The translations under genes were made by a program, and so were the position numbers. Shown one piece after another: positions 36,324 to 41,061 of a stretch of 64,000 bases of DNA (positions within the stretch are counted from its first letter, which is position 1; the number at the start of each line of letters is the position of its first letter). This DNA is from an uncultured Gammaproteobacteria bacterium (lineage in GTDB: Bacteria > Pseudomonadota > Gammaproteobacteria > Pseudomonadales > Azotimanducaceae). The DNA lies in assembly GCA_913050215.1 (NCBI GenBank), contig CAJXBG010000001.1:1-64000 (forward strand). The letters are read 5' to 3'. The notes below the pieces were generated by a model. It did not search any database. It had not been told where the DNA came from and saw only the letters and a list, made by a program, of their open reading frames with translations.

Positions 36324-37226
36324 TCAGGCAAAAGTGCCTTGATTCGTTTTCTTCTGAAATTGATGAAGTTGCCTGTCGTGTCGGCTCATTGCTGAAAGTC
36401 GGCCGTCTCTTACGTAGGGTTGCCACTGCGAAGATTCGGCGGCTTCAGGTTTGTCCCCCATAATAGTCACACGCTGGATGATTCTTTCGCCCACAAAGTC
36501 ATTCAAGACCATGTGTTGCGTGCATCGGTTATCCCACATCGCGATAGTGCCTGCCGACCATTGATAACGAACAGTAAATCTCGGTTGTTTCACCCAGTTG
36601 GTTAGATAACGTAACATGGCTTCACTCTCGGTTGAGTTCAATTCCACGATTCTTCGTGTGAAGTGCTCGTTAACATAAAGTGCTTTTCGGCCAGTAATCG
36701 GGTGCCTTCTGACGACAGGGTGGACAGCCATTTGTTCCGGATGATTATGGGGGTGCGCATCGTGCAGGGCTGTTAAACCATCGCACATGGCCTGCATGGG
36801 TGGTGACAGTTCGTCATAAGCGGCGTACAGGCTCGACCAGAGTGTATCGCCACCAACGTCAGGACATTTCACCATATGAAGAATCGACATCAGGGCCGGC
36901 TCAGGCCTGAAGGTAATGTCTGTATGCCACTCGTCAGCGACGCCGCCTTGAGTTGCTACCAGTTCAAATAATTCCGGATACTCCGCGTTGTTTGACAGAT
37001 TTGGATGTCCTTCAAGCTCACCAAAGTTACGCCCAAAGGCAATATGGTCATCTTTGCTCGGCGATTGACCTGGGAAAAAAAGCACCAGATGTTCCGTTAG
37101 CAGTGTTTTAATTGCATCCAGATCCTGTTCACTGACATGACTGATATTGGGTCCTGTTACGCTTGCGCCGAGCGAGCCTGATAAGCGTTTTATCTGCCAA
37201 TCAGCCGGAATGATTGTCTGTGCCAT
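36324..37226 (-). CDS. TauD/TfdA family Fe(II)/2-oxoglutarate dioxygenase
   Basis: A 300-residue dioxygenase with the iron-binding HxD at H101 and D103 (EWHTDITF), distal H238 in WDNRCTQHMVLNDF, and R252 for 2-oxoglutarate. GGDTLWSSLYAAYDEL is the usual family segment. It shares the WDNRCTQHM block with the paralogue at 6642-7448 but is longer at the C-terminus. It resembles taurine and alkylsulfate dioxygenases in general pattern; the substrate is undetermined. Confidence 0.85.
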   Translation of the reverse strand: MAQTIIPADWQIKRLSGSLGASVTGPNISHVSEQDLDAIKTLLTEHLVLFFPGQSPSKDDHIAFGRNFGELEGHPNLSNNAEYPELFELVATQGGVADEWHTDITFRPEPALMSILHMVKCPDVGGDTLWSSLYAAYDELSPPMQAMCDGLTALHDAHPHNHPEQMAVHPVVRRHPITGRKALYVNEHFTRRIVELNSTESEAMLRYLTNWVKQPRFTVRYQWSAGTIAMWDNRCTQHMVLNDFVGERIIQRVTIMGDKPEAAESSQWQPYVRDGRLSAMSRHDRQLHQFQKKTNQGTFA

Positions 37227-37307
37227 TGATCTGCCCCTGTTTCTTGGTTTGATTAAAGAATAAACCAGAGTCTTGCTCAGTGATAGGGGGTACTATCGAA
37301 GGCGTTG

Positions 37308-38090
37308 TTAACTGACTGTGCGAAATGAAACGATACTGGCGGCAACGCTGACATTAAGGGATTCAATGGCATTGGCCAGTGGAATGCTGACGATGTCATC
37401 ACAAGCGTGACGCACTGAGTCTGAAATACCACTCGTTTCGTTGCCCAGTACAAAAACATGTCGTCCGGTTTGCGAAACATCGGATAGGGCAAGCGTGCCA
37501 TTTGCCGCTAATCCCAAGACTTCAAAGCCGGTCGCTTTCAGATATTCAATACCTGAGTCAATTGTGTCGCAATGATAGATCTGGGCCCGGAATAAGGTGC
37601 CGGCACTTGCCTTTATCACGAGAGGGTCGAGGCGTGCGCAGCCATTTCGGGGAATGAGCAATCCTCGGCAGGGTGATGCCGCAACGCTTCTTATAATCAT
37701 GCCAAGGTTTTGGGGATTGGTGATTCTGTCAAGTGCGATAATTTCTGTCAGTGTGTCCTGTTCAGCATCATCAGCAGGTTTTGTAAGGGTTTCTAGTGCC
37801 TGATATCGCGGTACCTCGATATCCACGGCAATTCCCTGATCTTGTTTTCCATTTTTAGATATTCGTGAGAGCGCTTTTTTACTGTGGTAGTGGATTTCTG
37901 TATTTTTCCTGTTCGCGAGCGCTAGTATTTCTTTCAGGATGCCACTGATTTGATTGCTGTCGGCAAGGTGGAGGCGTTTTGGCTGAATATCAGTAGCTTG
38001 AAACACCTCCAGCACAGGCTTTCGACCGTAAATCGTAATTAAATTGTCAAAATACGATTTACGATCGATATAGGACTGACTATCTGTCAT
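37308..38090 (-). CDS. TrmH/SpoU family RNA methyltransferase
   Basis: A 260-residue SAM-dependent 2'-O-methyltransferase of the SPOUT class. The N-terminal substrate-binding domain includes YGRKPVLEVF. The knotted C-terminal domain has motif 1 DRITNPQNLGMIIRSV, motif 2 FVLGNETSGIS and motif 3 IESLNVSVAASI. It probably methylates a ribose in rRNA or tRNA; the target cannot be assigned. It begins 16 bases after the glutathione peroxidase gene and is probably the last gene of the imuA-imuB-gpx-trmH unit. Confidence 0.88.
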   Translation of the reverse strand: MTDSQSYIDRKSYFDNLITIYGRKPVLEVFQATDIQPKRLHLADSNQISGILKEILALANRKNTEIHYHSKKALSRISKNGKQDQGIAVDIEVPRYQALETLTKPADDAEQDTLTEIIALDRITNPQNLGMIIRSVAASPCRGLLIPRNGCARLDPLVIKASAGTLFRAQIYHCDTIDSGIEYLKATGFEVLGLAANGTLALSDVSQTGRHVFVLGNETSGISDSVRHACDDIVSIPLANAIESLNVSVAASIVSFRTVS

Positions 38091-38106
38091 TTCTATAACC
38101 GCTGTT

Positions 38107-38574
38107 TTACAACAGGGAGCTTAAGGTAGCGGAAATCTCTTCCGGTGTGACTTTAGGATGAAAACGTTTCACCACCTCACCATTTTTGTTGACCAGAAAT
38201 TTTGCAAAATTCCAAGGGATATCGACCGTGCCATCCTCCTCTGTTTGCTCCGTCTTTAACCATTGATAGAGCGGGGCAGCGCCGTCTCCGTTGACCTCTA
38301 TTTTGGCAAACATTGGAAAGTTCACGTCATATTTTGACTGTGCAAATGCCATTATTTCTTCATTAGTGCCGGGTTCCTGAGCACCAAACTGATTGCATGG
38401 AAAACCCAATACTTTCACATCACCTTGTTCTTGTAGGGCACGCAGACCTGCGTACTGAGGGGTGAGTCCTCATTGACTGGCAAGATTAACAATCAGTAAT
38501 GCCTGGTCTTTAAATTCTGAAAAGGAGATTTGCTCTCCGGTAATAGATTCCATTTCGAGTTCTGCGAGGTTCAT
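38107..38574 (-). CDS. glutathione peroxidase, predicted selenoprotein (UGA = Sec)
   Basis: Read from the ATG at 38574 (site AAGGAA), the frame encodes 155 residues if the in-frame UGA at 38470-38472 is read through as selenocysteine at residue 35. The UGA falls exactly at the peroxidatic position: LIVNLASQ-U-GLTPQYAGL, where cysteine homologues have NVASxCGFTPQY. After it the frame continues with VLGFPCNQFGAQEPG and IPWNFAKFLV, giving a normal-length enzyme with the Gln, Trp and Asn of the active site. A 7-bp stem with a GGUC loop follows the UGA at a distance suited to a bacterial SECIS. The enzyme would reduce peroxides using thiols. A simple nonsense mutation is possible but less likely. 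It follows imuB and precedes trmH. Confidence 0.82.
38438..38472 (-). promoter_or_regulatory. candidate bacterial SECIS element in gpx mRNA
   Basis: On the minus strand the UGA (38472-38470) is followed after 14 bases by the stem GUACGCA (38455-38449) pairing with UGCGUGC (38444-38438), six Watson-Crick pairs and one G-U, with loop GGUC. The loop starts 21 bases after the UGA and has G in its first two positions, as described for bacterial SECIS elements recognised by SelB. A competing UGAGG/CCUCA pairing that includes the UGA is also possible. Confidence 0.65.
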
Positions 38575-38651
38575 TCGTTTTTCCTTTTGGTGTTGTGATA
38601 CGTCTGGTTGTCATTTATTTGACTGTAATTGCTTTATCAGGCAAAGCTATT

Positions 38652-40289
38652 CTATGAGAAGATGCCATGTAAATACCATCGTTTGTCATTGCTGTACTGA
38701 AATATCCATAGTAGCGAACCCTGATTGTCTATCGTTGCAACGTAGTAATCACGGGTAATAACCTTGCTAAGATCATCCTCGTCCCACCAGCCGAAATCGA
38801 TTCTTTCAGGCCCTTTTAACAGGGTCAATTGGTGCTTAGCCTTTCGGGAAGACGAGTGTAAAGAAGACAGTTGAAAAGGTGTCTTAACTGACGCCCCTCC
38901 AGTTACATTACCAGCACTACTGAAGCTGCATGTTCCGGGTAGTGGCTTTGGTTGACTCAACAACATCATCGGTCTGGCGGGCTGAGGTGCCGATGTCATA
39001 CCTATTTGATCGGGTTGCCAGTAATCTTTTTGGTCAAGTCGAACTGGTTTCCATGCTTTTTCAGGGCGGTGATCATTAGCGGCGGAAAGTCCATAACAGG
39101 AACCAGGCCCCAGACGCGTACGTAATTTGTTAAGCAACATGTCTGTCTGCTGTTGTTGCCCTTTAACACTATTGTTTTGTTGAAACGGTGTGCCATGAAA
39201 TAAATCTCCGGAAATGTTAACCGCTGGAAAAAGATTATTGACGGCTAAAGAGAGGTTATCGATTTCTTTTACATCGTTTATCTGCTCAAGTTTAAGCAGG
39301 GTCAATGACATGAACATGTCATGCTCGTTAACAGGGTTAGCTAATAATATATTGAAGTTGCGATCGCCATGACTTCGATGCGACAAGGACCAAGATAGAT
39401 GGTTGGTGGCCAATTGTCTGGCAGTCAGAAATTCAGCCAGTTCGGAAATAAGTCGATTGATAGGAAAACGAAGTGATGCGGTATTATTAATATCTGCTAG
39501 AAAAGTCACATCATTCACGAATTTTGGTTCGGGATTGATGAACTTTTGCGGATCAGGTTTTTCACCGAGTAGGCGTTGCAGATAATCCACAAAATAAATG
39601 CCGAATCGACGATTTAGACCACTTTGGGGAAGTGCAAATAGTGCTTTGCAATCCGCGATACCCATTTGCTGCAGGGATTCGATGATTTTTTTATCTACCT
39701 GTAAACAATCCACTGGCAGGGACTCAAGCGACTTGGTGACATACGCTACACATGATCCATTTTCATCAGTTCCAGTGTTATCTTTTTCTACTTGCTGCTT
39801 CCTGTTGCTTGTAGCTAGACAAAGTGCGGCCATTGGGGTCATGTTTGTCGTTAATACGGATTCATATCCTTGCTTTGTTAATCCTTGCTGTATCCTTGAT
39901 TTCAGGTTTTCCAGTCCGCCAAATAGCTTCAGACAACCGCTGATATCAAGTAGCAGGCAATCAGGGGCTCTAATTGAGACATTAGGGGTGAATTGATAGG
40001 TCCATTGGGCTAAGTGGGATAGCGTAGAAAATTCTTTTTGCTCGTTTCTTTCAAAGCTAACTACTTGGCTACTTAGGGTGAAAGCTGTATCCAGACTGCT
40101 GCCAATGTTTATGCCCCGTGCGTGTGCCGCCGGGTTCAGAAACCTAACTTTCCGTTGCGCGAGGATTACTATCGGTCTACTGGTATCTTCGGGTTTTAAG
40201 CCTCTCGTAAAAACCTCCACCGGCAGCATAGGCAGATAAATAGATAGCCATAGTGTTTGTTGAGCAGTGTTATCGTAGTGGGTAACCAT
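38652..40289 (-). CDS. imuB: ImuB, Y-family polymerase-like mutasome subunit
   Basis: A 545-residue ImuB. It has the Y-family fold but starts LWLSIYLPMLPVEVF, without the catalytic acid of active Y polymerases, as usual for ImuB. The helix-hairpin-helix part contains MGIADCKALFALPQSGLNRR, and the protein ends in RWYLHGIFS, typical for the family. ImuB bridges DnaE2, ImuA and the beta clamp. The ATG at 40289 has an AGGA site and overlaps imuA by 20 bases; a TTG nine codons upstream is less likely. A clear clamp-binding motif was not pinned down. Confidence 0.92.
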   Translation of the reverse strand: MVTHYDNTAQQTLWLSIYLPMLPVEVFTRGLKPEDTSRPIVILAQRKVRFLNPAAHARGINIGSSLDTAFTLSSQVVSFERNEQKEFSTLSHLAQWTYQFTPNVSIRAPDCLLLDISGCLKLFGGLENLKSRIQQGLTKQGYESVLTTNMTPMAALCLATSNRKQQVEKDNTGTDENGSCVAYVTKSLESLPVDCLQVDKKIIESLQQMGIADCKALFALPQSGLNRRFGIYFVDYLQRLLGEKPDPQKFINPEPKFVNDVTFLADINNTASLRFPINRLISELAEFLTARQLATNHLSWSLSHRSHGDRNFNILLANPVNEHDMFMSLTLLKLEQINDVKEIDNLSLAVNNLFPAVNISGDLFHGTPFQQNNSVKGQQQQTDMLLNKLRTRLGPGSCYGLSAANDHRPEKAWKPVRLDQKDYWQPDQIGMTSAPQPARPMMLLSQPKPLPGTCSFSSAGNVTGGASVKTPFQLSSLHSSSRKAKHQLTLLKGPERIDFGWWDEDDLSKVITRDYYVATIDNQGSLLWIFQYSNDKRWYLHGIFS

Positions 40290-41061
40290 ATCGATCCTGG
40301 CTGCTTTGTCGATCAACGAAAACGAGATCAGGGGCAGGTTTGTGCGGGTTTCTGAAAGCCATTTCAGAAAAGTCAGGGGTTATCTGATGTAGCTTGTCAT
40401 CAAAATCGATGGTGAATTTTTCCGTTGGCCAGCCGCCACGACGCTTTACGATTTTCATGTCCAGAGAAGAATGCTCCACAAGGGGAGAATAACTGTTTCC
40501 CGTGAGTTCAATTCTGAGCTCAGCAGGCGAAGCCTGCTTTACAGATTGTATTGCCCTGAACAGTATGCCTAGTGATTTACCTGATTTGCTGGCTACTTGT
40601 AAACGCCGCACCTGTTTGTCGTTAATATTTTTTGGCCATGCGAGCACAGCGCAGCAACTTGTTGATGCGAGGGCTTGTTCCATGGCCCATAGACTATCTG
40701 TTTGATTTTTAGGATTGATGACAAGAATTGATGTTAGATCGATACCTGCCGCTATTAGCGCCGGCGCGTAGGGGATATAAGGAGGTGAAATCCACAGGAT
40801 CCAACCGGCTTTCTGCTGGCTGAGATTTGCCAGGGCTGGTGCTAGTAGTCTGATCTCTCCGATGCCTGCATGCTCATAAAGTAACTCTGTAATGCCATCT
40901 GTCGGCCACCCGGAGCCTGAAAGTTGCTCATCAAGTATGCTAAATCCGGTTGGTGTACCCTGTTTTTGCTCGGCCTGAAACCCTTCATGCATATGCGATG
41001 CTCGCCACATCCCTGCTTTTTGCAGGGTTTTGTCGAGGTCGTATGGTTGCTTTTGTGCCAT
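40270..41061 (-). CDS. imuA: ImuA, RecA-like mutasome subunit
   Basis: A 263-residue protein of the ImuA/SulA-like RecA-fold family: TGFSILDEQLSGSGWPTDGITELL, split here as TGFSILDEQL and GWPTDGITELLYEHAGIGE, then QQKAGWILWISPPYIPYAPA and LEQALA-like MEQALASTSCCAVLAWP. It is required with ImuB and DnaE2 for damage-induced mutagenesis in characterised bacteria. It is the first gene of the operon and has a LexA-like box 91-110 bases upstream. Confidence 0.9.
   Translation of the reverse strand: MAQKQPYDLDKTLQKAGMWRASHMHEGFQAEQKQGTPTGFSILDEQLSGSGWPTDGITELLYEHAGIGEIRLLAPALANLSQQKAGWILWISPPYIPYAPALIAAGIDLTSILVINPKNQTDSLWAMEQALASTSCCAVLAWPKNINDKQVRRLQVASKSGKSLGILFRAIQSVKQASPAELRIELTGNSYSPLVEHSSLDMKIVKRRGGWPTEKFTIDFDDKLHQITPDFSEMAFRNPHKPAPDLVFVDRQSSQDRYGYPLR

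Follow-up and report, generated by a model that had tools for sequence, protein, structure and literature searches.

We identified in the window, by which we mean the whole analysed stretch of 64,000 nucleotides, a gene that we read, with a probability of about 96%, as a GPx4-like glutathione peroxidase (GPx) with one catalytic selenol, in which selenocysteine (Sec) would be decoded through SelB and a SECIS element and reduced by an external thiol. The host is a gammaproteobacterium related to marine lineages. The observations behind this reading are an intact frame, a complete catalytic tetrad, a conserved UGA with its SECIS element, the Sec machinery in the same genome and the absence of the resolving cysteine (Cys) of two-Cys homologs.

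An intact peroxidase gene with UGA at codon 35

The gene begins with ATG and ends with TAA, and the TGA at codon 35 is the only other stop in its frame (Table 1). The readthrough product of 155 residues, with the site context LASQ-U-GLTPQY, matches PF00255 at 125.2 bits (E 1e-36; curated cut-off 27), and its solved relatives, including yeast Hyr1 and GPx4, are found at E values of 5e-38 to about 1e-33. The first-pass annotation, which had placed a UGA at the peroxidatic position of such a GPx, proved correct in its coordinates and description, to which we add the minus strand and the SECIS element. It had also anticipated that naive annotation would start at the internal GTG, and standard ORF calling on the locus indeed returns the 103-residue fragment and nothing else. 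This is a clean case in which standard annotation would cut a selenoprotein down to that fragment, with its active site lost.

Table 1. Features of the GPx locus, in window coordinates
Feature	Position	Strand	Basis
Predicted Sec-type GPx gene, 155 residues with UGA as Sec35	38107..38574	-	sequence, PF00255, relatives
In-frame UGA, predicted Sec codon 35, peroxidatic residue	38470..38472	-	frame; TGA in all same-genus homologs
Shine-Dalgarno-like AAGGAA 5' of the ATG	38581..38586	-	read directly off the sequence
103-residue fragment with GTG start at 38418, output of standard gene calling; not the real gene	38107..38418	-	ORF calling
Bacterial SECIS apical stem-loop: 7-bp stem, GGUC loop (38448-38445), loop 21 nt past the UGA	38438..38455	-	folding, Sec/Cys contrast, covariation, fdhF core
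ImuB-like DNA polymerase Y family gene, upstream; conserved GPx neighbor in relatives	38652..40316	-	PF00817, synteny
SpoU-family RNA methyltransferase gene, downstream; GPx neighbor in several relatives	37308..38090	-	PF00588, synteny

That gene calling yields the fragment alone is also what one could cite for a pseudogene, in which the UGA would be a nonsense mutation in a decaying gene. However, each of the other five genomes in the genus carries one GPx, with 66-73% identity to the window protein and one in-frame TGA; since the same codon is TGA in these five and in dozens more homologs, and since the frame continues on both sides, its presence at codon 35 is not due to chance. Moreover, purifying selection acts on either side of the UGA (downstream dN 0.16-0.27, dS above 1 or saturated) and the SECIS element is retained, so that decay is very improbable, in line with the first-pass view of an intact gene. 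The draft state of the assembly, in 258 contigs, might be held to favor a sequencing or assembly error for TGC or TGT. Yet the TGA recurs in independent assemblies, including all those of the genus as well as single-contig genomes, and because so many independent homologs keep it, we consider the likelihood of an error negligible. A further possibility is that UGA is decoded as something other than Sec, through readthrough or a change of code that would give Trp or Cys. Against this, UGA works as a stop in the host, since 14 of 50 tallied window ORFs end in TGA; a dedicated tRNA-Sec is present together with SelA, SelB, and SelD, and the SECIS element tracks the UGA, which leaves such decoding highly improbable as well. 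It was the conservation of the TGA, the selection on the gene, and the TGA stops in the window that ruled out decay, sequencing error, and a code change. The catalytic residue of the window GPx is thus very probably Sec, read from the in-frame UGA.

A SECIS element within the coding sequence

Directly 3' of the UGA lies a stem-loop that carries a G in its apical loop, as is characteristic of bacterial SECIS elements. If the U of the UGA is taken as base 1, the stem is formed by bases 18-24 and 29-35, and a ten-base core, GCAGGTCTGC, is that of Escherichia coli fdhF, as checked in an E. coli collection in which 5,368 genomes match. Of the 46 distinct Sec sequences, 39 form the complete seven-pair stem, whereas none of the 63 Cys sequences does so when read in that register; the remaining seven Sec sequences read GCCGGGTTGC and have a loop of six bases. 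This conservation of the stem-loop, confined to the TGA versions, supports the Sec reading that the first-pass annotation had proposed. Over 42 sequences, 98.0% of stem cells are paired, compared to 95.9% in shuffles, and the covariation score of the stem was reached by 0 of 500 shuffles, with two pairs changed on both sides and three others invariant and hence uninformative on covariation. Taken by itself, the folding energy of the stem is modest (when the window gene is recoded synonymously at random, 1.4% of the recodings give the full 7-bp stem and about 6% fold as stably), and the evidence for the element is therefore its conservation and the Sec/Cys contrast rather than folding energy. 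Because the SECIS element is coding sequence, compensatory changes in its stem alter the protein, as where GCA...CGT (Ala42, Arg45) is replaced by ACA...TGT (Thr42, Cys45). One homolog, L052, has TAT GCA...CAT, with His45.

Selenocysteine machinery and other UGA-containing genes

The first-pass annotation had named the Sec machinery as a check, and selA, selB, selD, and tRNA-Sec are all present in the host assembly (4.44 Mb, 98% complete). The tRNA-Sec, on contig 98, scores 69.3 bits, above the Rfam cut-off, and is called tRNA-SeC with anticodon UCA by ARAGORN. On contig 2, selA (582 bits) is adjoined by selB (404 bits summed over two stretches, in a 660-residue frame), while selD (256 bits summed) is found on contig 75 within an open frame of 754 residues (L018, G000:C75), whose long N-terminal part resembles an FAD/NAD(P)-dependent dehydrogenase. 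With the sequence MQCGGCGSK, SelD of this host seems to have Cys where Sec stands in many SelD proteins.

Beyond the window GPx, no further PF00255 member was found in the host genome, nor was there an above-cut-off match or an in-frame TGA for a formate dehydrogenase alpha chain of the FdnG/FdhA type. The genome was searched by families and by one pattern. It has three more thioredoxin-fold genes with in-frame UGA, which are likely to encode its second, third, and fourth selenoproteins. These are a peroxiredoxin/BCP-like gene (L149, G000:C32:20115-20483, minus strand; ...FFPKAFTGGUTIEC...), in which the stem-loop 3' of the TGA is weaker; an AhpC/TSA-like gene with a UxxC motif (L150, G000:C192:380-772, plus strand; ...NRSVDWUPFCIRQF...); and a thioredoxin-fold domain inside a longer protein (L155, G000:C184:715-1056, plus strand; ...TWSSWUGCFLDVPVW...). 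A pattern search of the genome for fdhF-like SECIS cores returned, apart from the GPx, a single site, C6:52312-52336, which has no evident UGA-interrupted gene and which we attribute to chance, a control pattern having given two sites. In the window, a scan for other genes interrupted by a single UGA led to none being taken up; frames with two TGAs were skipped, and the GPx frame, when extended upstream, has two.

Active site and proposed catalytic cycle

The catalytic tetrad of the window GPx consists of U35, Q62, W121, and N122, and since Gln62, Trp121, and Asn122 are invariant in all 115 sequences compared, the Sec-Gln-Trp-Asn site is complete. At position 78, 58 of the 64 Cys forms carry Cys, while Ala is found in 45 of the 51 Sec forms and Val in the other 6. 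Yeast Hyr1 has Cys at the aligned position (EIAQFCQ), which we take to be the resolving Cys of thioredoxin-dependent GPx. The window protein has Ala78 and so lacks the resolving Cys of a thioredoxin-dependent two-Cys GPx.

From these features we infer that Sec is inserted, that the protein acts as a peroxidase, and which reductant it uses. SelB carrying Sec-tRNA-Sec would bind the stem-loop just past the UGA, and recoding of UGA35 as Sec would yield the 155-residue enzyme with its Sec35-Gln62-Trp121-Asn122 site. The selenol of Sec35 may then reduce a hydroperoxide, being converted to a selenenic acid, and the oxidized selenium would be reduced by two external thiols, probably glutathione, with no intramolecular disulfide or thioredoxin route. 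An external thiol is the most likely reductant because position 78 is Ala and not a resolving Cys; as the absence goes back to a single evolutionary change, it supports, but does not prove, a GPx4-like cycle with one Sec.

The enzyme could also be a Sec peroxidase as proposed whose reductant or substrate is other than glutathione or hydroperoxides, with thioredoxin or glutaredoxin, for example, as reductant. Many non-animal GPx homologs are thioredoxin-dependent, which lends this alternative some weight; however, the resolving Cys of such enzymes is Ala in the window protein, and Cys60 is the sole Cys in its predicted sequence. We therefore regard a different reductant or substrate as unlikely, though far less remote than the rivals to Sec itself, and favor an external thiol, probably glutathione.

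Relatives and the exchange of selenocysteine and cysteine

Among 115 homologous genes, codon 35 is TGA in 51, the window gene counted, and TGC or TGT in 64, which answers the homolog comparison that the first-pass annotation had suggested. Its statement that Sec-type GPx is known in bacteria stands, while "uncommon" needs qualifying, as the type is common in the family of the host and its relatives. Across the order, most matches at or below about 55% identity have no internal stop, and those checked have Cys. One further match, G206:C117:13-303, lies at a contig end and covers residues 54-150 only, at 70% identity; it is probably a Sec-GPx truncated by the contig boundary.

In a maximum-likelihood tree, one branch (support 100/95) sets apart all 51 Sec forms together with six Cys forms. 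Members of the Sec side include OM182-type and other Gammaproteobacteria, metagenome-assembled genomes (MAGs) labeled as Alphaproteobacteria or as Actinomycetota (Acidimicrobiales and kin), and a single Myxococcota MAG. Four Sec/Cys label changes are needed on this tree and four are forced by starred branches. The simplest reading would be one gain of Sec and about three losses to Cys (L027 with L111, L119 with L121, and L115 with L041). The direction of these changes is inferred because the root was set by midpoint. A direction from Sec to Cys is supported by decayed yet recognizable SECIS remnants in the Cys forms L027 and L111 (TACGCAGGTCTTTGTAC and TACGAAGGTCTATGTAA, compared to TACGCAGGTCTGCGTGC in the window), and by the L111 gene sitting in the same imuB-GPx-spoU setting as the window gene. 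None of the six nested Cys forms has regained Cys78, and L119 and L121 carry Cys at position 75. The association of Sec with a missing Cys78 is not independent evidence, since a test of correlated change finds a single Cys78 change on the whole tree.

We found selA in every Sec-GPx genome checked, in the genus of the host, and in 20 of 20 tested genomes of its family outside that genus, among them G373, G139, G111, and G163, which have Cys-form GPx. For five of the nested Cys forms (L111, L027, L115, L119, and L121), selA is kept in 4 of 4 tested genomes. No selA match was obtained in G053, which belongs to another family and has Cys-GPx, whereas its genus mate G008 has both Sec-GPx and selA.

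At the window locus, the order imuA-imuB-GPx-spoU-tauD (36324-41061, minus strand) recurs in part in related genomes, with SulA/ImuA-like and polymerase Y-like genes adjoining the antioxidant enzyme.

We lean modestly toward a history in which a large Sec-GPx lineage spanning Gammaproteobacteria, Actinomycetota, and Myxococcota had a single origin without the resolving Cys and underwent about three exchanges of Sec for Cys in genomes that retained the Sec machinery, the resolving Cys never being regained. In the Sec forms, the SECIS element would dictate amino acids, with Ala42/Arg45 and Thr42/Cys45 exchanged jointly while the stem stays paired. Less known, perhaps, are how widely this clade extends and how repeatedly it has gone back to Cys, neither of which a limited literature search found described. 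The family offers natural Sec and Cys versions of GPx, in some cases at one shared locus, and the SECIS element decays once Sec has been replaced; with such versions one could test directly what advantage a bacterial peroxidase gains from Sec.

Comparison with known systems

Mammalian GPx4, the phospholipid hydroperoxide GPx, has Sec in the native enzyme. It matches the window GPx at an E value of about 1e-33 and shares its tetrad, and both lack a resolving Cys at the usual position; in GPx4, however, a eukaryotic SECIS in the 3' UTR and other insertion machinery are used, whereas the window SECIS lies inside the coding region. The apical core of the E. coli fdhF SECIS, GCAGGUCUGC, is identical to that of the window GPx, although fdhF encodes a different protein family and its loop starts 18 nt past the UGA rather than 21 nt.

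Sec-containing GPx has been known in bacteria since 2005-2006, and the window gene joins an existing selenoprotein family. The Sargasso Sea metagenome yielded bacterial Sec-GPx in 2005 (PMC1088965), in the form of five sequences; the present case, likened to it by description, adds the complete Sec machinery in one genome, conservation across the genus, and synteny. The Sec-GPx of Treponema denticola is likewise known (PMC1794560), and a 2026 review lists a Sec GPX-like family (reference WP_010957027.1) predicted with high confidence, with the motif UxxT (PMC13188914). Like these, the window protein is a GPx family member with predicted Sec in a UxxT motif, while T. denticola belongs to a different phylum from the host and is likened to it by description, outside our GPx tree.
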